Shown piece after piece: positions 49,181 through 59,518 of a stretch of DNA of 64,000 nt (positions are counted from its first letter, which is position 1; the number at the start of each line of letters is the position of its first letter). Source of the stretch: Gillisia sp. Hel_I_86 (lineage in GTDB: Bacteria; Bacteroidota; Bacteroidia; Flavobacteriales; Flavobacteriaceae); NCBI RefSeq assembly GCF_007827275.1, contig NZ_VISE01000001.1:3038001-3102000 (forward strand), written 5' to 3'. The notes under the pieces are model-generated. The model was not told the origin of the DNA and made no database searches. It was given only the letters and a program-made list of their open reading frames with translations. The position numbers were made by a program, and so were the translations under genes.

Positions 49181-49996
49181 ATGGATAAATTACCAAAGAT
49201 TGGGTTGCCAATTTTAATTTTTGTAGTTTTTTTAATTATTTTAATAGCTAAATCTACAGTTACAATCAATTCCGGTGAAGCTGGTGTTTTATATAAAACC
49301 TTTGGAGGCGGAGTTGTAACAGATCAACCACCATTGGGAGAAGGATTTCATGTGGTTGCCCCTTGGAACAAGGTTTTTGTATATGAGGTGCGTCAACAAT
49401 CTTTAGAAGAGAATATGCAAGTATTGTCCTCTAATGGATTGGAAATTAAGTTGGATGCTTCGGTTTGGTATCAACCATTATATGAAGATCTAGGAGCATT
49501 GCACCAAGATAAAGGAGAGAATTATGTGCAGCGAGTATTGCAACCAGCTGTTCGATCTGCAGCACGTGCCGTAGTTGGTAGGTATATTCCAGAACAATTG
49601 TATGCAAGTAAGCGTGAAGCGATTCAAAAGGAAATTTTGGATGAAACCAGGTTGCTTTTAAAAGATCAATATGTGCAAGTTAATGAGGTGTTGGTAAGGG
49701 ATGTTTCCCTTCCACAAAACATTAAGGAAGCAATTGAGCGAAAGTTGAGGCAAGAGCAAGAATCATTGGAATATGAGTTTAGATTGACCAAAGCTACCCA
49801 AGAGGCACAAAGACAACGTATTGATGCTGAAGGAAAAGCCAAGGCCAATGAAATCCTAAGTGCTTCGTTGAACGACAAGATCTTACGAGAAAAAGGGATC
49901 CAAGCAACTGTAGAGTTAGCTAAATCGCCTAATGCCAAGGTGGTAGTAATAGGATCTGGTGGCGATGGAATGCCTTTAATATTAGGAAATAACTAG
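49181..49996 (+). CDS. Prohibitin/SPFH-family membrane protein
   Basis: The 271-residue protein has one N-terminal membrane segment (about 8-27), then a Band-7/SPFH domain (GEAGVLYKTFGGGVVTD to about residue 190) and a coiled-coil region (RLTKATQEAQRQRIDAEGKA) ending in GSGGDGMPLILGN. Members form large ring complexes that scaffold membrane proteases or lipids. It lies behind the vWA-like gene and is probably in the same unit. Confidence 0.92.
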   Translation: MDKLPKIGLPILIFVVFLIILIAKSTVTINSGEAGVLYKTFGGGVVTDQPPLGEGFHVVAPWNKVFVYEVRQQSLEENMQVLSSNGLEIKLDASVWYQPLYEDLGALHQDKGENYVQRVLQPAVRSAARAVVGRYIPEQLYASKREAIQKEILDETRLLLKDQYVQVNEVLVRDVSLPQNIKEAIERKLRQEQESLEYEFRLTKATQEAQRQRIDAEGKAKANEILSASLNDKILREKGIQATVELAKSPNAKVVVIGSGGDGMPLILGNN

Positions 49997-50035: not shown

Positions 50036-50064
50036 TTTGTTTCTAATAAAATATGCTAGATTTG
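50036..50064 (+). promoter_or_regulatory. Promoter of the histidine operon
   Basis: TTTG (50036-50039) and TAGATTTG (50057-50064) are separated by 17 bp. The leader-peptide ATG is 10 nt past the -7 box. Confidence 0.6.
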
Positions 50065-50073
50065 CGTTTATAA

Positions 50074-50130
50074 ATGAAAACAATTCAACTACATCATCAT
50101 CATTTTCACTACTGCGCTCTGGCGAGGTGA
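50074..50130 (+). CDS. hisL: Histidine operon leader peptide
   Basis: The 18-residue ORF reads MKTIQLHHHHFHYCALAR, five His in seven codons at positions 7-13. It ends 29 nt before the attenuator terminator arm. Stalling of the ribosome at these codons when His-tRNA is short would change the fold of the downstream leader. It is too short for ORF calling, yet the His run directly upstream of hisG leaves little doubt. Confidence 0.88.
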   Translation: MKTIQLHHHHFHYCALAR

Positions 50131-50191
50131 TTTGATATGTAGTAAATTCAACATATATAAAAACCCGTTTGAGCAATCGAACGGGTTTTTT
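50088..50191 (+). promoter_or_regulatory. Transcription attenuator of the his operon
   Basis: Three exclusive pairings are visible. 1:2 is ACTACAT (50088-50094, overlapping the His codons) with ATGTAGT (50137-50143). 2:3 is TTTGATATGT (50131-50140) with ACATATATAAA (50151-50161). 3:4 is a terminator with arms 50159-50172 and 50177-50190 around a GCAA loop, followed by T6. Stalling on the His codons would block region 1, favour 2:3 and open the terminator. Confidence 0.8.
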
Positions 50192-50236
50192 GTTTCCTGT
50201 TTGGTTTTCAAATCAATAATTATTCAAAATTTAAAG

Positions 50237-51100
50237 ATGAGCAAAGAAAAATTAAGAATTGCAATTCAAAAAGCAGGAAGGCTCAATGAAGATTCCCTGA
50301 AAATATTGAAAGATGCCGGAATCTCGATAGATAATGGAAAAGAACAGCTTAAAGCTACTTCCCCTAATTTCCCTTTAGAAGTATTGTACCTAAGGAATGG
50401 GGATATTCCACAATATCTTAGGGATGGAGTTGTGGATATTGCCTTTTTGGGCGAGAACGTATTGGAAGAAAAAGGCCATGATATTATCCAAGCAGAAAAA
50501 TTAGGTTTCTCTAAGTGCAGGGTTTCCATTGCAGTACCAAAATCTATGAAATATAATGGAATTGAAGATCTGGAGGGGAAGCGGATTGCTACTTCCTATC
50601 CAAATACCTTAAATTCATTCTTGAAGAAAAAAGGAATCACGGCAGATCTGCACATCATTAATGGTTCTGTAGAAATTGCGCCAAATATTGGCTTGGCAGA
50701 TGCCATTTGTGATATTGTATCCAGTGGAAATACCTTGTTCAAAAACAATTTGAAAGAAGTAGAGGTAATGATGAAAAGTGAAGCGGTTCTTGCTGTTGCT
50801 CCTAATATTTCGGAAGAAAGAAAAGAGATTTTAGCAAAACTTCAATTTAGGTTAAAATCGGTGCTTAATGCGCGGACTTCAAAATATATACTTTTGAACG
50901 CGCCAGATGCTAAATTAGCAGAGATCATTAAATTACTGCCTGGAATGCGAAGTCCTACGGTACTTCCTTTAGCAGAAAAAGGCTGGAGTTCCATCCATAC
51001 CGTAATTCAGGAAAATAAATTCTGGGAAATTATACATGAGCTAAAAGAGCTTGGAGCCGAAGGGATTTTGGTAGCCCCAATTGAAAAAATGGTATTATAA
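50237..51100 (+). CDS. hisG: ATP phosphoribosyltransferase, long form
   Basis: The 287-residue enzyme catalyses the first step of histidine synthesis, PRPP plus ATP. The start is ATG at 50237 (MSKEKLRIAIQKAGRL); a longer in-frame reading from 50132 runs through the attenuator and is rejected. The length and the C-terminal ACT-like part (about residues 215-287, LLPGMRSPTVLPLAEKGW) mark the long HisG type, which is feedback-inhibited by histidine and needs no HisZ; none is present. Confidence 0.95.
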   Translation: MSKEKLRIAIQKAGRLNEDSLKILKDAGISIDNGKEQLKATSPNFPLEVLYLRNGDIPQYLRDGVVDIAFLGENVLEEKGHDIIQAEKLGFSKCRVSIAVPKSMKYNGIEDLEGKRIATSYPNTLNSFLKKKGITADLHIINGSVEIAPNIGLADAICDIVSSGNTLFKNNLKEVEVMMKSEAVLAVAPNISEERKEILAKLQFRLKSVLNARTSKYILLNAPDAKLAEIIKLLPGMRSPTVLPLAEKGWSSIHTVIQENKFWEIIHELKELGAEGILVAPIEKMVL

Positions 51101-51115
51101 TTAATTAAAAGGATC

Positions 51116-52402
51116 ATGAACAAATTATATAATCCTAAAAAAGAAGCTTGGGAGGAATTATTAAAAAGGCCAACCCAAACTTTGGAAGATATCGAGCAAA
51201 CCGTAAATGATATTTTTTTTGAGGTAAGGGCGAAAGGAGATGTTGCCGTTGCAAAGTACACCGATCTTTTTGACGGCGTGAAGTTGGAAGGTTTTAAGGT
51301 TTCTTCTGAAGAAATTGAGGGGGCCAAGAACGTTGTAAGTTCTGAATTGAAGAATGCAATTCAGTTGGCAAAATCAAATATTGAAAAATTCCATAGGGCA
51401 CAAAAAACTCCAAAAATTGAAGTGACCACTACCAAAGGAGTAGAATGCTGGCAAGAAAAACGGCCTATCCAAAAAGTTGGGCTTTATATTCCTGGTGGAA
51501 GTGCACCGTTATTTTCAACTATTTTAATGCTCGCTACTCCTGCCAACATCGCTGGTTGTAAAGAGATCGTATTGTGTACCCCGCCAGATAAGGATGGAGA
51601 GATAAATCCGGTTATCCTGTATACCGCCACACTTTGTGGAGTAGATAAAATTTTCAAGATTGGTGGGATCCAAGCTATTGCAGCTCTAACATTTGGGACA
51701 AAAACTGTTCCGAAGGTTTATAAGATATTTGGTCCCGGGAATCAGTTTGTGACCGTTGCAAAGCAATTGGCTACGAAGTTCCATGTAGCGATAGATATGC
51801 CGGCAGGACCTTCTGAGCTACTTGTGGTGGCAGACGATAGTGCCGATGCTGCCTTTGTTGCATCAGACCTTCTTAGCCAAGCAGAACATGGGGCAGATAG
51901 CCAAGTAATCCTTATTTCTACTTCAGAAAAAATGTTGGAAGCTGTGGAGCAGGAACTGGAAATACAGTTAGAGGCATTACCAAGAAAAGACATGGCTCGA
52001 AAGTCCATTGCGAATTCTAAACTTATCTATTTAAAAAGTAAAGAACTGGCGATGGAAATAATCAACGAATATGGTCCAGAACATCTTATTGTTTGCACCG
52101 CAGATAATGCATTTTATATTGAAAATATTTCAAACGCAGGTTCCGTGTTTATCGGGAATTATACGCCGGAAAGCGCTGGGGATTACGCTTCTGGAACAAA
52201 CCATACCTTACCAACCAATGGTTTTGCTAAACAATATAGCGGAGTTAACTTAGATAGTTTTATGAAAAGCATGACTTTTCAGAAAATATCTGAAGAAGGA
52301 ATCAAGAATATTGGTCCTTCAATAGAAATAATGGCCGAAGCCGAAGGGCTACAGGCACATAAAAATGCAGTGACCCTAAGACTTAACAAGCTGAAGGAAT
52401 AA
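51116..52402 (+). CDS. hisD: Histidinol dehydrogenase
   Basis: The 428-residue enzyme carries out the last two oxidations, L-histidinol to L-histidine, with NAD and zinc. It contains LYIPGGSAPLFSTILMLATP near residue 125, AGPSELLVVADD near 230 and the signature with TNHTLPTNGFAKQYSGVN near 365. It lies 15 nt after hisG, and its stop overlaps the hisC start by one base (TAATG). Confidence 0.96.
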   Translation: MNKLYNPKKEAWEELLKRPTQTLEDIEQTVNDIFFEVRAKGDVAVAKYTDLFDGVKLEGFKVSSEEIEGAKNVVSSELKNAIQLAKSNIEKFHRAQKTPKIEVTTTKGVECWQEKRPIQKVGLYIPGGSAPLFSTILMLATPANIAGCKEIVLCTPPDKDGEINPVILYTATLCGVDKIFKIGGIQAIAALTFGTKTVPKVYKIFGPGNQFVTVAKQLATKFHVAIDMPAGPSELLVVADDSADAAFVASDLLSQAEHGADSQVILISTSEKMLEAVEQELEIQLEALPRKDMARKSIANSKLIYLKSKELAMEIINEYGPEHLIVCTADNAFYIENISNAGSVFIGNYTPESAGDYASGTNHTLPTNGFAKQYSGVNLDSFMKSMTFQKISEEGIKNIGPSIEIMAEAEGLQAHKNAVTLRLNKLKE

Positions 52403-53451
52403 TGGAAAAAGTTTTCGAAACAAACAAGTTGGTGAGACCTAACGTTTTGGCTTTAAAAGCCTATTCTTCAGCCAGGGATGAATATACTGCTGAGGGATCA
52501 AAAATGATCTTTTTAGATGCCAATGAAAATCCGAATGAAACGGGCGTGAATAGGTATCCAGATCCGCAGCAAAAGAAATTAAAAGCGAAGCTTTCAGAAA
52601 TAAAAAAGATTCCTATAAATAATATTTTGTTGGGAAATGGTAGCGATGAGGTTTTGGACCTTATATTTAGGGCTTTTTGTGAACCTGGGATAGACAATAT
52701 AATCACATTACCCCCAACTTATGGGATGTACAATGTTTTAGCTGGGATCAATAATGTGGAAAGCAGGGAAGTTTTGCTCACAGAAGATTTTCAGCCTAAC
52801 GTAAATGAGATTTTTAAAAGTGTAAATGAAAATACGAAATTGATCTTTTTATGTTCCCCAAATAACCCCACCGGAAACTCTTTTAGGAGAAATAAAATTA
52901 CTGCAATAGTAGAAAAATTTGAAGGCCTTGTAGTTTTGGATGAAGCTTATATCGATTTTTCTGAACAGGCTAGTTGGATAGAAGAACTAAATAAATATCC
53001 TAATTTGATTATTACCCAAACGCTATCCAAAGCATTCGGAATGGCAGGAATTAGATTGGGGATTTGTTATGCTTCCGAAGAGATCATGGCAATTTTAAAC
53101 AAGATCAAGCCGCCATACAATGTAAATGAATTAACTCAGAACAGGGCTTTGTACCGGCTTCAAAATATCCCAGAAGTAAATATGGAAGTAGCTGATATAA
53201 AGCTAGAAAAAGAGGTTTTATATAAAGCATTACTTGAAGTTAAATATATTGAGAAAATATTTAAATCTGATGCCAATTTTTTACTTGTTAAGGTAGATGA
53301 TGCTTTAAAAAGATATAATCAACTTCTTGCAAAAGGAGTGGTGATTCGAAACCGAACTACCCAACCACTTTGTAAAAATACCTTGCGATTTACCATAGGA
53401 ACAAAAGAGGAAAATTTGAAATTGATTAAGGTTTTGAAAAGTTTGAATTAA
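52402..53451 (+). CDS. hisC: Histidinol-phosphate aminotransferase
   Basis: The 349-residue PLP enzyme of fold-type I transfers an amino group to imidazole acetol phosphate. CSPNNPTGNSF near residue 155, VLDEAYIDFS near 180 and TQTLSKAFGMAGIRLG with the Schiff-base Lys near 213 are characteristic. The ATG overlaps the hisD stop, so translation is coupled. A repeat unit separates it from hisB. Confidence 0.95.
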   Translation: MEKVFETNKLVRPNVLALKAYSSARDEYTAEGSKMIFLDANENPNETGVNRYPDPQQKKLKAKLSEIKKIPINNILLGNGSDEVLDLIFRAFCEPGIDNIITLPPTYGMYNVLAGINNVESREVLLTEDFQPNVNEIFKSVNENTKLIFLCSPNNPTGNSFRRNKITAIVEKFEGLVVLDEAYIDFSEQASWIEELNKYPNLIITQTLSKAFGMAGIRLGICYASEEIMAILNKIKPPYNVNELTQNRALYRLQNIPEVNMEVADIKLEKEVLYKALLEVKYIEKIFKSDANFLLVKVDDALKRYNQLLAKGVVIRNRTTQPLCKNTLRFTIGTKEENLKLIKVLKSLN

Positions 53452-53461
53452 ATTTTTAAAA

Positions 53462-53532
53462 TTGTCCGTTTTGTCACCCTGAGGGTAGGCGAAGGGTTTT
53501 AAAGTATCTCGACTCCGCTCGATGTGACAGTT
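53462..53532. repeat. Palindromic repeat inside the his operon (hisC-hisB)
   Basis: GTCACCCTGAGGGTAGGCGA and CTCGACTCCGCTCGATGTGA units fill the 114-nt hisC-hisB gap. Confidence 0.65.
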
Positions 53533-53565
53533 CAATTTATCATTTTAAAACAAGAAGAAAACAAC

Positions 53566-54705
53566 ATGAAAAAAATACTTTTTATAGATCGGGATGGGAC
53601 ATTGATTCATGAGCCGGAAGATTATCAAATAGACACTTTAGAAAAGCTGGAATTCTATCCTCAGGCATTATTCTATTTGTCCAAAATAGCAAAGGAACTG
53701 GATTACGAATTTGTAATGGTAACGAACCAAGATGGTTTGGGCACCGACGCCTATCCGGAAACCGCTTTTTGGCCCATTCAGAATTTCGTTTTAAAAACAT
53801 TCGAAAATGAAGGTGTGGTTTTTAATGAGGTGCTCATGGATAGAACTTTTGCAAAGGACAATTCCCCAACCAGAAAACCCAATACTGGTTTATTGGAAGA
53901 AAATTATCTGAATAACGATGCCTATGATCTTGCTGGATCGTATATGATTGGAGACCGAATGACAGATATGGAATTTGCCCTTAATTTTGGTGGGAAAGGG
54001 ATCTTTATTGATACGCATGAAAAACTTGGCGCCGATGAGCTGAAAAATGGGCAGAAACAAATCGATAATTCGATAGCCCTCAAAACTTCCAGTTGGGAAA
54101 AAATCTATGAATTTTTAAAACTGAAAGAACGCTCTTCGGAAATATCCCGAAAAACCAATGAGACGGATATTTTTATCCGTCTTAATTTGGATGGGACAGG
54201 AAAATCCAACATTTCGACCGGATTGGATTTCTTCGATCATATGCTGGATCAAATTTCCCGCCATGGCCAAATGGATTTGGAGATTAAAGTGAAAGGGGAT
54301 TTAGAAGTAGATGAACATCATACGATCGAAGATACTGCCATTGCTCTTGGAGAAGCTTTTAGTTTGGCACTAGGGAACAAACTTGGGATTGAACGCTATG
54401 GTTTCTGTTTACCAATGGATGATTGTCTAGCCCAGGCAGCAATCGATTTTGGCGGAAGAAACTGGTTGGTTTGGGATGCTGAATTCAAAAGGGAAATGAT
54501 AGGGAAAATGCCAACAGAGATGTTTTTTCATTTTTTCAAATCCTTTGCAGATGGAGCTAAAGCAAACCTGAATATCAAAGCAGAAGGCATCAACGAACAT
54601 CATAAGATAGAAGCAATTTTTAAAGCATTTGCAAAGGCTATTAAAATGGCGGTAAAAAGGGATACCGAAAAGATGATCCTTCCTTCAACAAAAGGAATGT
54701 TATAA
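53566..54705 (+). CDS. hisB: Bifunctional histidinol-phosphatase / IGP dehydratase
   Basis: The 379-residue fused enzyme starts at ATG 53566 ([17 protein letters not shown]); 14 in-frame codons before it cover repeat DNA. The N-terminal HAD phosphatase (about 1-165) has FIDRDGT and ends with [12 protein letters not shown]. The C-terminal imidazoleglycerol-phosphate dehydratase (about 185-379) has [15 protein letters not shown] and [17 protein letters not shown] and [19 protein letters not shown] with the manganese-binding His. The fusion matches enteric and Bacteroidota HisB. Confidence 0.96.
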
Positions 54706-54739
54706 TCAAATGTATATCCGTAAACTATCATAAAGTGCT

Positions 54740-54980
54740 AAATAACGTCATTCTGAACTTGTTTCAGAATCTCATAAAGTACATTGAGACCCTGAAATGA
54801 ATTACCATTGATGTATTTTTATTTATTTGCAATTAATAGACCCTGAAACCAGTTCAGGGTGACGATGCGGTATTGTCGTCATGCTGCACTTGTTTCAGCA
54901 TCTATTTCATTAGAAAATTGAATATAACGTCAAAAACCTACGCTAGGTAAATTTTTTATCACGAGTCTCAGGATAACGAA
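54740..54980. repeat. Composite palindromic repeat between hisB and hisH
   Basis: It fills most of the 343-nt gap between hisB and hisH. It contains the GACCCTGAAACCAGTTCAGG and TCGTCATGCTGCACTTGTTT blocks and, at 54808-54933, a diverged third copy of the 123-bp element with decayed terminal repeats (TTGATGTATTTTT and ATATAACGTCAA). Confidence 0.75.
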
Positions 54981-55048
54981 AGAACTATTAGGACAGAAAT
55001 AGATGCTATAAATTTTAATAGGTGAGAAGCCTAGATCAAGTAACAACA

Positions 55049-55630
55049 ATGAAAATAGTAATTATAGATTACGGAGCAGGAAATATCCAAAGCATCAAGT
55101 TTGCTATTCAGCGATTGGGTTTTGAAGCAGTTTTAAGCAGTGACGAGCAAGAAATTAAAACTGCCGATAAAGTGATATTTCCAGGAGTGGGAGAGGCGAG
55201 CAGTGCAATGAGAATGCTAAAGCAATCTAAATTGGATCTGCTTATTCCCACTTTAAAGCAGCCTGTATTGGGGATCTGTTTGGGAATGCAATTAATGTGC
55301 ACTAAAACTGAAGAAGGAGATACCACCGGATTGGGCATTTTTGATGTTCCCGTTATAAAATTCAACAATTCGGTTAAGGTGCCACAAATTGGATGGAATC
55401 AAATTTCTGATTTGCATTCTCCTTTATTCAAGGATATTAAAGAACTCGAATATGTGTATTTGGTGCATAGCTTTTACGTACCCGAATGTGAAGAAACAAT
55501 TGCAACTTCCGAGTATGGATTGAAATATAGTACTGCCTTGAAAAAAGGTAATTTTTATGGAGTACAGTTTCATCCTGAAAAAAGCAGTGATGCAGGAGAG
55601 CAGATTTTAAAGAATTTTTTAGAACTATAA
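55049..55630 (+). CDS. hisH: Imidazole glycerol phosphate synthase, glutaminase subunit
   Basis: The 193-residue class-I glutamine amidotransferase feeds ammonia to HisF. The nucleophile Cys is in LGICLGMQLM near residue 80, and the His/Glu pair is in GVQFHPEKSS near 175. The start is ATG 55049 (MKIVIIDYGAGNIQS); a GTG nine codons upstream is the alternative but not family-like. Confidence 0.95.
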   Translation: MKIVIIDYGAGNIQSIKFAIQRLGFEAVLSSDEQEIKTADKVIFPGVGEASSAMRMLKQSKLDLLIPTLKQPVLGICLGMQLMCTKTEEGDTTGLGIFDVPVIKFNNSVKVPQIGWNQISDLHSPLFKDIKELEYVYLVHSFYVPECEETIATSEYGLKYSTALKKGNFYGVQFHPEKSSDAGEQILKNFLEL

Positions 55631-55641
55631 TTTAAAAGTAA

Positions 55642-56382
55642 ATGAGAATTATTCCAGCAATAGATATCATAGACGGTAAATGCGTGAGGCTCTCTAAGGG
55701 AGATTACAATACCAAAAAGATATATAATGAGAATCCATTAGAGGTTGCCAAAGAGTTTGAAGCCCATGGCATTGAATCCCTCCATCTTGTAGATTTGGAT
55801 GGTGCGAAGTCCAGCCATATCGTGAATCATAAGGTTTTGGAACAAATTGCGAACAACACCAATCTTAAAATTGATTTTGGAGGTGGATTAAAATCCAACA
55901 AAGATCTGGAAATCGCTTTTGAATGTGGCGCACAGCAAATTACCGGAGGAAGCATCGCAGTAAAGGATAGAAACCTGTTTCTTTCATGGATCGGGAAATA
56001 TGGAAGTGATAAAATAATTTTAGGTGCCGATGCAAAAGACGAAAAAGTGGCAATCAGTGGGTGGTTGGAAGAGTCTAAAGAAGAACTAGTTCCTTTTATT
56101 GAGGCCTATTTAAAGGATGGCTTGCAGTATGTGATTTGTACCGATATTTCTAGGGATGGCATGTTAGAAGGCCCTTCTTTTGATCTCTATGAGAAGATCC
56201 TTGCTGAAACATCTGATAATAAAAACACGATTAAGTTGATCGCTTCCGGCGGAATCTCAACTTTTGAGGAACTTCCAAGACTTGCAGAAATGGGCTGTGA
56301 AGGCACTATTATTGGTAAAGCTATCTATGAGAACAAAATCAGTTTGAAGCAATTGGAATCCTTTATTCTGAATTCTAAATAA
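55642..56382 (+). CDS. hisA: ProFAR isomerase
   Basis: The 246-residue (beta-alpha)8 barrel isomerises ProFAR to PRFAR. Catalytic Asp is in [13 protein letters not shown] near residue 8; the second Asp is in [12 protein letters not shown] near 171. Phosphate loops GGGLKS and [11 protein letters not shown] are present. It lies 11 nt after hisH and 10 nt before hisF. Confidence 0.96.
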
Positions 56383-56392
56383 TTCAAAACCT

Positions 56393-57148
56393 ATGTTAAC
56401 TAAGAGAATAATTCCTTGTTTGGATATCAAAAATGGAAGAACCGTAAAAGGAGTAAATTTTGTAGATCTTAGGGATGCTGGAGATCCCGTGGAATTAGCG
56501 GCTATTTATGCAGCTTCGGGAGCAGACGAATTGGTGTTTTTGGATATCTCGGCTACCGAAGAACGACGAAAAACCTTGGCTAATTTGGTTTTAAAGGTTG
56601 CCGAAAAAATCAATATTCCTTTTACGGTTGGAGGTGGGATTTCTTCTGTTGAAGATGTGGATATTTTACTTCAAAATGGAGCAGATAAAGTTTCCATTAA
56701 TTCTTCTGCGGTGAAAAACCCGGATTTGATCAATCAATTAACTGCTAAATTTGGGAGCCAGTGTATTACTGTGGCGATAGATGCGAAATTGATTGAGGGA
56801 GAATGGATCGTGCATTTGGTAGGAGGGAAGGTGCCCACAGAGTTGAACCTTTTCGATTGGGCTAAAGAAGTTGAAGAACGTGGAGCGGGGGAAATTTTGT
56901 TCACCTCCATGAACAATGATGGCACAAAAAATGGCTTTGCAAACGAAGCCCTTGCCAAATTATCTACAGAATTGAATATCCCGATAATAGCTTCCGGTGG
57001 AGCTGGAAATATGCAGCATTTTTGTGATGCATTTATAGAAGGAAAGGCAGATGCTGCTCTGGCTGCGAGTGTTTTTCACTTTAAGGAGATCGAAATAAAG
57101 GATTTAAAAGAAGAGTTGAGGAAAAACGGAATTCCAGTAAGGCTTTAA
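56393..57148 (+). CDS. hisF: Imidazole glycerol phosphate synthase, cyclase subunit
   Basis: The 251-residue barrel cyclises PRFAR with ammonia from HisH. It has [18 protein letters not shown] with Asp11 near the N-terminus, [10 protein letters not shown] near 82, [12 protein letters not shown] near 168 and [11 protein letters not shown] near 202. It ends 112 nt before the IS insertion point. Confidence 0.96.
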
Positions 57149-57256
57149 ATTTGACAATAATATCTAATTGGATTCATCTGTTTGATTAAAAAGTGTATTT
57201 AGCGTATAAAATTGATGATATTTTTCAATTCTTAAAGGAGATGCTGAAACCCCCGA

Positions 57257-57260
57257 AGTA
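57257..57260. repeat. Left target-site duplication of the IS
   Basis: AGTA immediately outside the left terminal repeat; the same four bases follow the right end at 58720-58723. Confidence 0.7.
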
Positions 57261-58719
57261 TCCTATCGTGTGGACACAATTATTTACTAGTTTAAGGGAT
57301 TAGCATTAATTTTACTCAAAAAATGAGAAGGGGGTTCACAGGCTTAGGGGATAAACGTTTGGTTTATCGGGGCAACAAGATTTTATCGGACCTGTTCAGC
57401 AAGAGCGTCCATTCGATCCGTCAGCTCAGCAGGAACGAATCAGACGCAAAGGCCGTTTACCGTTTTTTGCAGAACGATAGGGTCAGTGAAGAAGATATAG
57501 TAGAGAACCTGGTACATAATTGCCAGATGGCTTGTGCGGGCAAATTTGTTGTCTGTATCCAAGATACCACGGAGGTCAACCTAAGCAGCCATGGTAATAG
57601 GATCAACAAAGATGGCTTTGTGGGCACGACCAATGCGAAGAATTCCCAGGGACTGGGGTTCTTTGTCCACCCAAGTTTGGTCTTGGATGCCGTGAGCGGC
57701 ACCCCCTACGGCTATTCTGATATTAAGATCTGGAACAGGTCCTTGGACTTCAAATCAAAGCATGAAAGACAGTACGGCAAGCTGCCCATGGAAGAAAAAG
57801 AGTCCTATAAGTGGATAGAGGTGTCCAAAAACACACAGGCCTCACTAAGGGACGTGGTAGCGGGAATGGTGATCGTACAAGATAGGGAAGGGGATATCTA
57901 CGAACAGTTTGCAAGCATACCAGATGCACGAACAGATCTATTGATAAGGGCCCGTGCGGATAGGGCCTTGGCGGATGGGTCAAAATTGTTCAGCTGCCTG
58001 GCGGACCAGCCCTGTCAAGGGTCCTATGAGGTACAGGTGGATGCCTGTGCAAAGACCAGAAGGAAAAAAAGGACCGCAAAAATTGAAATCAGATATAAAG
58101 AGGTAGAACTGAAAAGGACCAGGGCGGCCAGCAAGGCAGTGGCGCCCAGCATAAAACTATATCTGGTGGAGGCCAAAGAGGCTAACCGGGCCGGGCCGGG
58201 CAGGGTGTGCTGGAGGTTATTGACAAGCCTGCCCATAGAGACCCTGGAAATGGCAGAAATGTGCGTGGAATGGTATAAGTGGAGGTGGACGATAGAAGAG
58301 GTGTTCAAGATATTGAAAAAAGAGGGCTACAATATCGAGGCGTCAGAGCTGGAGCATGGGTCATCGGTAAGAAAACTGAGCTTGTTGATAATGGAGGTCA
58401 TCATCCAACTGTTCTTGATGCGGCTGGCGTATGCAGTACCAGAAGGAGAGATGAGCGCCGATAGCTGTTTCACGGAAGAAGAGCAAGCGTTTTTAGAGCA
58501 CCAGATAATAAGACTGGAAGGTAGGACAGGGAAACAAAAAAACCCGTACAAGGAAAAAGGGCTAAAAAGATATGTTTGGGCGATAGCTAGACTTGGCGGA
58601 TGGAAAGGCTATGAAAGCAAAAGGCATCCCGGCATAACGACCCTATGGATAGGACTGAAATATTTTAAGGCGGCCATGGAAGGGTGGACGATTCATAAAG
58701 ATGTGTCCACACGATAGGA
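57261..58719 (+). mobile_element. IS4-family insertion sequence, 1459 bp
   Basis: The element is bounded by perfect 18-bp terminal inverted repeats TCCTATCGTGTGGACACA (57261-57278) and its reverse complement (58702-58719), flanked by a 4-bp AGTA duplication. It contains one intact transposase gene. It lies between hisF and hisIE, in the same direction as the his genes. Removing it and one AGTA restores CCCCCGAAGTATCGGGG, a close match to the intact palindrome at 46.95 kb. It appears complete and recent. Confidence 0.9.
57323..58717 (+). CDS. Transposase, Tn5-like DDE (IS4 family)
   Basis: The 464-residue transposase has the Tn5 layout: an N-terminal DNA-binding region (LGDKRLVYRGNKILSDLFSK; DAKAVYRFLQND), the first Asp in CIQDTTEV near residue 86, the second in IVQDREGDIYEQ near 190, and the Glu in WRWTIEEVFKILKKEG near 325. 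Base composition is clearly GC-richer than all neighbouring genes, a sign of foreign origin. The stop lies inside the right terminal repeat. No frameshift or stop was seen, so it may be active. Confidence 0.92.
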   Translation: MRRGFTGLGDKRLVYRGNKILSDLFSKSVHSIRQLSRNESDAKAVYRFLQNDRVSEEDIVENLVHNCQMACAGKFVVCIQDTTEVNLSSHGNRINKDGFVGTTNAKNSQGLGFFVHPSLVLDAVSGTPYGYSDIKIWNRSLDFKSKHERQYGKLPMEEKESYKWIEVSKNTQASLRDVVAGMVIVQDREGDIYEQFASIPDARTDLLIRARADRALADGSKLFSCLADQPCQGSYEVQVDACAKTRRKKRTAKIEIRYKEVELKRTRAASKAVAPSIKLYLVEAKEANRAGPGRVCWRLLTSLPIETLEMAEMCVEWYKWRWTIEEVFKILKKEGYNIEASELEHGSSVRKLSLLIMEVIIQLFLMRLAYAVPEGEMSADSCFTEEEQAFLEHQIIRLEGRTGKQKNPYKEKGLKRYVWAIARLGGWKGYESKRHPGITTLWIGLKYFKAAMEGWTIHKDVSTR

Positions 58720-58830
58720 AGTATCGGGGCAGCATGACGACAATTTCTCAGCGTCACCCTGAACTGGTTTCAGGGTCTAGAATTTGTGAATTTTTGAAAA
58801 TACGTCAATGGTAACTTGTTTCAGTGCAAA
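58720..58830. repeat. Palindromic repeat split by the IS
   Basis: Starting with the AGTA duplication, it runs through TCGGGGCAGCATGACGACAA, CACCCTGAACTGGTTTCAGG and TACGTCAATGG, an inverted fourth relative of the 123-bp element. Its other half lies at about 57236-57260. The 169-nt gap before hisIE holds nothing else. Confidence 0.75.
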
Positions 58831-58888: not shown

Positions 58889-59518
58889 ATGGAAATAGAT
58901 TTCAATAAAAATAAAGATGGTCTGGTACCTGTAATTATTCAGGATAATAACACGAAAAATGTGTTGATGCTGGGATATATGAACGAGGAAGCCTACTTAA
59001 AAACCAATCAAGGTAATAAAGTTACATTTTTCAGCAGGACCAAAAACCGCTTATGGACGAAAGGGGAGGAAAGTGGAAATTTTCTTGAAGTAGTGAATAT
59101 CAAGAATGATTGCGACAATGATACTTTATTGATTTCTGTGATTCCGCATGGTCCAACTTGCCACAAAGGAACAGATACTTGCTGGGGAGAAACGAACAAT
59201 TCCAATTTTGGATTTCTTTCTGAACTGGAAGGAATTATAGCAGATCGTAAGAAGAAAAGTGAGATAGCTTTTGAATTGAGAGCAAAAGAGGATGCTAGTT
59301 ATGTGGTTTCCCTTTTTGATGATGGAATGAACAAGATTGCCCAAAAAGTGGGTGAGGAGGCTATAGAAACTGTTATTGAGGCCAAGGATGATAATGATGA
59401 TCTTTTCTTGAATGAAAGTGCAGATTTACTTTTTCATTATATGATATTATTAAAAGCCAAAGGTTTTGGTCTAAAAGATATTGTTGAAGTGCTGGAAAAA
59501 AGGCATACCAAAAAGTAG
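58889..59518 (+). CDS. hisIE: Bifunctional PR-AMP cyclohydrolase / PR-ATP pyrophosphatase
   Basis: The 209-residue fused enzyme carries out steps 2 and 3 of the pathway. The N-terminal HisI domain (about 1-110) has the metal-binding HGPTCHKGTDTCWG with three Cys/His ligands. The C-terminal HisE domain (about 120-209) has KVGEEAIETVIEAKDDNDD, the MazG-like metal site. It is the last gene of the operon but is cut off from hisF by the IS; a new promoter or read-through from the IS must supply its transcript. Confidence 0.95.
   Translation: MEIDFNKNKDGLVPVIIQDNNTKNVLMLGYMNEEAYLKTNQGNKVTFFSRTKNRLWTKGEESGNFLEVVNIKNDCDNDTLLISVIPHGPTCHKGTDTCWGETNNSNFGFLSELEGIIADRKKKSEIAFELRAKEDASYVVSLFDDGMNKIAQKVGEEAIETVIEAKDDNDDLFLNESADLLFHYMILLKAKGFGLKDIVEVLEKRHTKK

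Follow-up and report, generated by a model that had tools for sequence, protein, structure and literature searches.

What controls the histidine operon that begins with hisG in the window (the whole stretch of 64,000 nucleotides analysed here), and do the short His-rich reading frame and the hairpin in front of hisG act together in this control? Comparison of the locus with its relatives makes it highly likely that transcription of the his operon is controlled here by ribosome-mediated attenuation. The leader ORF and the hairpin very probably switch the his genes on together when histidine is short. The window lies in a single-contig genome, and its HisG shows 92-95% identity with seven Gillisia records and 81-83% with two others.

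Layout of the his leader region

49181-49996: upstream Band_7 gene
50036..50039, forward strand: TTTG, possible -33 element of a sigma-A promoter (from the sequence; consensus per PMC7366714)
50057..50064, forward strand: TAGATTTG, predicted -7 box of a Bacteroidota sigma-A promoter, matching TAnnTTTG
50074..50130, forward strand: ORF of the his leader peptide MKTIQLHHHHFHYCALAR, read directly (ATG 50074, TGA 50128-50130, 18 residues)
50088..50143, forward strand: protector hairpin 1:2, expected without leader translation (50088-50110 with 50126-50143, MFE fold)
50092..50109, forward strand: regulatory codons HHHHFH, predicted site of ribosome stalling when His-tRNA is scarce
50116..50174, forward strand: predicted antiterminator 2:3, outer helix 50116-50128 with 50163-50174 (A125 bulged), inner helix about 50131-50140 with 50151-50160
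50159..50191, forward strand: intrinsic terminator 3:4 with GCAA loop and U6 (from the sequence, and from pairing and covariation in 55 aligned loci)
50237..51100, forward strand: hisG, first gene of the operon (ORFs, Pfam HisG)
50237-57148, forward strand: his operon hisG-hisD-hisC-hisNB-hisH-hisA-hisF (ORFs), followed by an insertion element
58889-59518, forward strand: hisIE, after the insertion element

The leader ORF and the terminator can both be read directly, and the first-pass annotation was correct in reporting an 18-residue His-rich leader before hisG and a GCAA-loop terminator with T6, 45 nt before the hisG ATG at 50237. Its remark that the leader is shorter than the enteric one was mistaken, since 18 residues exceed the 16 that it gives for the enteric leader. 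The His codons occupy 50092-50103 and 50107-50109, that is five His in six codons. In the terminator, 50159-50172 pairs with 50177-50190 around the loop at 50173-50176, and the T6 run covers 50186-50191. The leader RNA folds at -35.8 kcal/mol, with a z of -5.4 against dinucleotide shuffles (0/200 as good). The claim that the 1:2 arm overlaps the His codons agrees with the MFE fold.

From the position of the -7 box we predict that transcription starts at about 50069, which would give a 5' UTR of 5 nt. According to the available portions of the two transcriptome papers, the sigma-A box TAnnTTTG of Flavobacterium psychrophilum lies at -12 to -5 and its leaderless mRNAs amount to 5.5% (PMC9723704), and about 3.7% of the 5' UTRs of Bacteroides thetaiotaomicron are shorter than 10 nt (PMC7366714). 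In the loci compared below, an exact TAnnTTTG no more than 60 nt from the leader start was found in 108/159 loci, against 420/7950 shuffles of the last 55 nt. The 5' UTR predicted from the box is at most 7 nt long in 49/64 close loci, 8/48 loci of the even family draw and 11/47 of the class draw. Since it is common in close loci and rare in the even draws, the near-leaderless start appears to be a clade trait and not class-wide.

Pfam matches in the operon are HisG, Histidinol_dh, IGPD, PRA-CH and PRA-PH, and hisC, hisH, hisA and hisF were named by position and sequence. The insertion element between hisF and hisIE (57251-58729) has 28-nt imperfect inverted repeats and a transposase gene (57323-58717) with Pfam matches to Tnp_DNA_bind and DDE_Tnp_1 and a Tn5 dimerisation domain below cut-off; we take this transposase to be IS4-like. 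Because the element sits between hisF and hisIE, hisIE may be separated from the attenuator-controlled transcript. In addition, the roughly 340-nt gap that separates hisNB from hisH (54706-55048) contains repeat-like stretches such as ACCCTGAAACCAGTTCAGGGTGACG, and its sequence resembles the DNA just right of the insertion element.

Conservation in relatives

All 63 hisG loci fetched by similarity carry an upstream short ORF with at least three His. Since this set is biased, genomes were drawn evenly; to count as a leader, an ORF had to be 7-45 codons long and contain at least 3 His within a stretch of 7 codons. In the family draw, hisG was present in 50/60 genomes with our own included, giving 49 others that are genus representatives. 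In the class draw it was present in 56/119, again including our own, and 51 of the 55 others were read; two of these 51 are from the same family and one is from the same order, and four genomes with hisG matches (G072, G100, G135 and G137) were left out of them. A His-rich leader precedes hisG in 48/49 other family genera and 47/51 class genomes, together 95/100 evenly drawn genomes. The same criterion was reached by 40/2000 mononucleotide shuffles, and by the opposite strand in 1/49 family and 6/51 class genomes. The threshold of 3 in 7 codons is loose: Leu reaches it as well, in 35/49 and 39/51, so that counts made with it are by themselves less specific. When 4 in 7 codons are required, His passes in 36/49 and 39/51, and the next best residue in 8 and 9. 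By these counts, conservation of the leader is far above chance. The single family miss, L103, has on inspection an HTHQ leader with a similar tail and terminator, and no leader was found in four of the 51 class genomes read. Outside the class but in the same phylum, 36 of 54 genomes with hisG were read: a candidate leader, with no shuffled control, was found in 19/23 of those with HisG of at least 40% identity (weak in L191) and in 0/13 of those near 30% identity.

The structural comparison used a close set of 112 loci (the window, the 63 similarity loci, among which L058 and L060 represent other orders, and 48 family-draw loci), the class loci and two alignments. Alignment A1 holds 61/64 loci, with L044, L058 and L060 omitted. 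Alignment A2 comprises 55 loci (the window, 48 from the family draw and six from the class draw that were judged alignable); its selection favours the structure, and L103 is absent from it, having no leader by the criterion. A His run of at least two is present in 111/112 close leaders. Runs range from 2 to 7 and their length varies by whole codons; CAT is used 375 times and CAC 42 times, and 39 runs mix both. The switching between CAT and CAC and the change of run length by whole codons favour the view that the leader is translated.

A U-tract terminator follows the leader in 112/112 close and 39/47 class loci (151/159 together). In A2, 99.0% of terminator cells are paired, and 25 cells show a two-sided change, against 4.7 in shuffles. 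The hairpin finder detected no U-tract terminator in eight class loci with leaders; because of these loci and of the four class genomes without a leader, other control modes may exist. In three class loci, L143, L148 and L154, the last residues of the His-rich leader are Ser-Ser, a GGAA-rich stretch comes after the stop and no U-tract terminator was found, so that they possibly represent another control mode; L143 and L148 also have ACACACCC and CCGGTGACG in common. Additionally, L003, L004 and L061 contain extra sequence between terminator and hisG, with inverted motifs like GGGGCAAGCC and GGCTTGCCCC.

The best conserved parts of the region are the leader tail CGCTCNGGCGAGGT and the terminator arm ACCCGTTTGAG, which are mutually complementary. 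In 61 close relatives, nine of the eleven tail-arm pairs are kept in 55 to 61 sequences and the other two in 50 and 53. Antiterminator cells in A2 are paired in 87.7% of cases, against 21.7-49.5% when the arms are slid, and 10 cells show a two-sided change (0/500 shuffles as high). One pair occurs as A-U in 28, G-U in 15 and G-C in 9 loci, and two basal pairs are weak (39/55 and 23/55). In the same alignment, neither the number of antiterminator pairs with a two-sided change (324/500 shuffles as high) nor the number of pair types (425/500) is above shuffles. The tail motif lies out of frame or past an early stop, and is kept all the same, in 8 of the 108 close leaders having it (4 further close leaders have none of the variants sought); this points to a constraint on the RNA rather than on the peptide.

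Taken by itself, the window has a tail-arm duplex no better than whole-spacer shuffles (z -1.0, p 0.2), but better than shuffles when a tail picked by hand is scored (shuffled tails as good in 12/1000). In single sequences the energy of the spacer/arm duplex is a weak statistic (p at most 0.05 in 46% of 39 class loci). Nascent-RNA folding came next, in which the RNA left free by a ribosome at the second His was compared with 50 spacer shuffles. At least six tail-arm pairs form in 112/112 close and 38/39 class loci (150/151), and the fold is at or below the 5% level of the shuffles in 102/112 and 25/39. In the window the nascent fold is better than shuffles (0/200 as good). The antiterminator arm starts inside the leader codons in 111/112 close and 26/39 class loci. 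Class members form the helix with different letters, for example GGCGAGCC with GGGCUUGCC in L133 and GGUAAGUC with GGCUUACC in L138; when arms are exchanged between class members, the mean duplex energy shifts just slightly, from -9.7 to -8.2 kcal/mol. No exact copy of the his tail-plus-terminator pattern was found elsewhere in the window's own genome.

The protector stem is less uniform. With the leader untranslated, the MFE fold contains at least five stem 1:2 pairs in 110/112 close and 39/39 class loci and leaves the terminator intact in 109/112 and 39/39; both are model counts with no shuffled control. Single pairs of the stem are kept in 27/60 to 53/56 relatives, one of them in 1/61. The expectation of the first-pass annotation that the His run and the stems are kept in relatives is thus borne out for leader, terminator and antiterminator, and is patchy for the pairs of stem 1:2.

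Proposed working of the switch and alternative explanations

The conserved ORF, the terminator and the conserved complementarity between leader tail and terminator arm are seen directly in the sequences; leader translation, stalling and histidine-dependent read-through we infer as follows. Transcription would start a few nucleotides before the leader ATG. When His-tRNA is charged, the ribosome would reach the stop codon at 50128-50130 and cover the last leader codons, the terminator at 50159-50191 would form, and transcription would stop before hisG. When His-tRNA is scarce, the ribosome would stall on the His run and open stem 1:2; the freed tail (50116-50128) could then pair with the 5' arm of the terminator (50163-50174), and polymerase would read into hisG. 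With the leader untranslated, stem 1:2 would hold the tail and the terminator would form. Geometry was modelled, with no shuffled control, for a ribosome assumed to occupy -20 to +12 relative to the A site: standing at the stop codon, it would hide half or more of the antiterminator arm in 110/112 close and 36/39 class loci, and standing at the last His, in 4/112 and 3/39. A classical mechanism in a compact layout, with the stop codon inside the predicted antiterminator arm, is well supported by the comparison.

The first-pass annotation had described three mutually exclusive hairpins and given no coordinates for 2:3. The window does contain a small ATATGT/ACATAT stem, which is the inner portion of the antiterminator drawn here, and an attenuator with this stem as its entire antiterminator might be imagined. 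Yet the stem and the terminator are both present in one MFE structure, so the stem cannot antiterminate alone. Its seven pairs hold in 28/59 to 44/51 of the 61 relatives, against 55 to 61 for nine of the eleven outer pairs. We hold this version to be very improbable. In the model, exclusion of the terminator needs the leader tail to pair with the terminator 5' arm. The exclusive hairpins of the annotation stand with that pairing and fall if 2:3 is ATATGT/ACATAT only. Its reading of the leader as a histidine attenuator is supported by the conservation in relatives, with the antiterminator drawn differently.

Two further explanations would separate the ORF from the hairpin. The terminator does sit downstream of the Band_7 gene, and a Band_7 C-terminal motif is found upstream in 53/113 close loci, which would fit a hairpin that merely ends that gene beside an incidental short ORF. 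But leader and hisG occur together in 59 close and 47 class loci without the motif within 450 nt upstream, the hairpin lies about 160 nt beyond the gene and past a promoter box, and the His run is specific, so that we give this account very little credence. Histidine could instead be sensed in some other way, for instance by a T-box or a protein-bound terminator, with the leader peptide only aiding translation of hisG; the accessible part of PMC4833913 records a proposal that leader genes near structural genes help reinitiation. Such a sensor would not need conserved His codons, and a distance of 106 nt, with the terminator in it, separates the leader stop from hisG. Moreover, no Rfam family reached its gathering threshold in the window or in ten relatives, and the T-box model had no match at the his locus, either at gathering or among 26 matches up to E 10. 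This makes another sensor very unlikely.

Related leaders and known systems

The same genome contains two further amino-acid leaders with similar complementarity. Upstream of trpE (L208, reverse strand) we found a Trp leader, MKNNTVHTWWWNNLRQNVVK, with an Rfam match to Bacteroid-trp (RF01692) of 59.4 bits, a leader RNA whose presence here counts in favour of attenuation at his; upstream of the prephenate dehydratase gene pheA (L211, 1337-1414), a leader ORF, MKNIITWTAFYYFYFYYGDKIGSVM, contains FYYFYFYY and is followed by a terminator, and is likely a Phe/Tyr attenuator. Both tails complement their terminator arms, tails and arms being chosen by eye, with shuffled tails as good in 30 (trpE) and 6 (pheA) of 1000. 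A TATATTTG box lies 5 nt before the ATG of the trpE leader and predicts a practically leaderless transcript. A simple scan around the ilvD and homoserine dehydrogenase genes, on one strand for the latter, revealed no convincing leader nearby.

A wider proposal, to which we give an even chance, is that Bacteroidia share one attenuator design for his, trp and phe. In this design the last leader codons are the antiterminator arm, which places the stop codon within region II, and some members of the class begin the transcript practically at the leader ATG and have no Shine-Dalgarno sequence there. If this is true, the shared design would correspond to the low-leak strategy which Elf and Ehrenberg name alongside the extra hairpin of enteric his (PMC1183508, as far as available), and its wide distribution would give genomic evidence of ribosomes in this phylum keeping pace with polymerase right from the first codons.

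RF00514, which we take to be the Rfam His_leader family, that is the enteric his attenuator (hisL), had no match at the his locus, neither at gathering nor among the 26 matches up to E 10, and Bacteroid-trp had none there. Weak Rfam matches to PyrR, Thr_leader and Leu_leader fell below gathering and were rejected. Vitreschak et al. 2004 reportedly made comparative predictions of amino-acid attenuators, histidine included, with some cases in Bacteroidetes/Chlorobi. Among the literature matches listed, which covered few subscription papers, we identified no paper describing this his attenuator. The available parts of the 2021 F. psychrophilum transcriptome study report a structured element at hisG, and also at pheA, in other Flavobacteriaceae and without an Rfam hit, and strong clues for leader-peptide attenuation before amino-acid operons (PMC9723704); the hisG element has the same gene position as ours, and those parts give no anatomy for it. 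The same source describes F. psychrophilum as being without Shine-Dalgarno sequences. Excerpts of PMC7366714 note that B. thetaiotaomicron sORFs recall attenuation leaders, and in a survey of the superphylum's his genes from 2021, the accessible text speaks of attenuation for enteric bacteria only (PMC8305728). Little has been described of how Bacteroidota control histidine synthesis, and the leader supplies a candidate RNA family and a testable antiterminator. It would also be a natural probe of transcription-translation coupling in bacteria without Shine-Dalgarno sequences.

The his leader is very probably a switch of a familiar kind whose present form has yet to be catalogued. Like the enteric his attenuator, it combines a His-run leader peptide with alternative RNA structures upstream of hisG; it differs in its predicted promoter, which is of the Bacteroidota type. 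In enteric his an extra hairpin keeps basal read-through low, whereas here the predicted antiterminator carries the stop codon inside its 5' arm, which is like the other strategy named in the available portion of the same analysis (PMC1183508). Bacteroid-trp, listed by Weinberg 2010 (PMC2864571, in the part available), likewise belongs to an amino acid operon of Bacteroidota as its leader RNA, and has Trp codons instead of His; in this genome its leader tail, too, complements the terminator arm.
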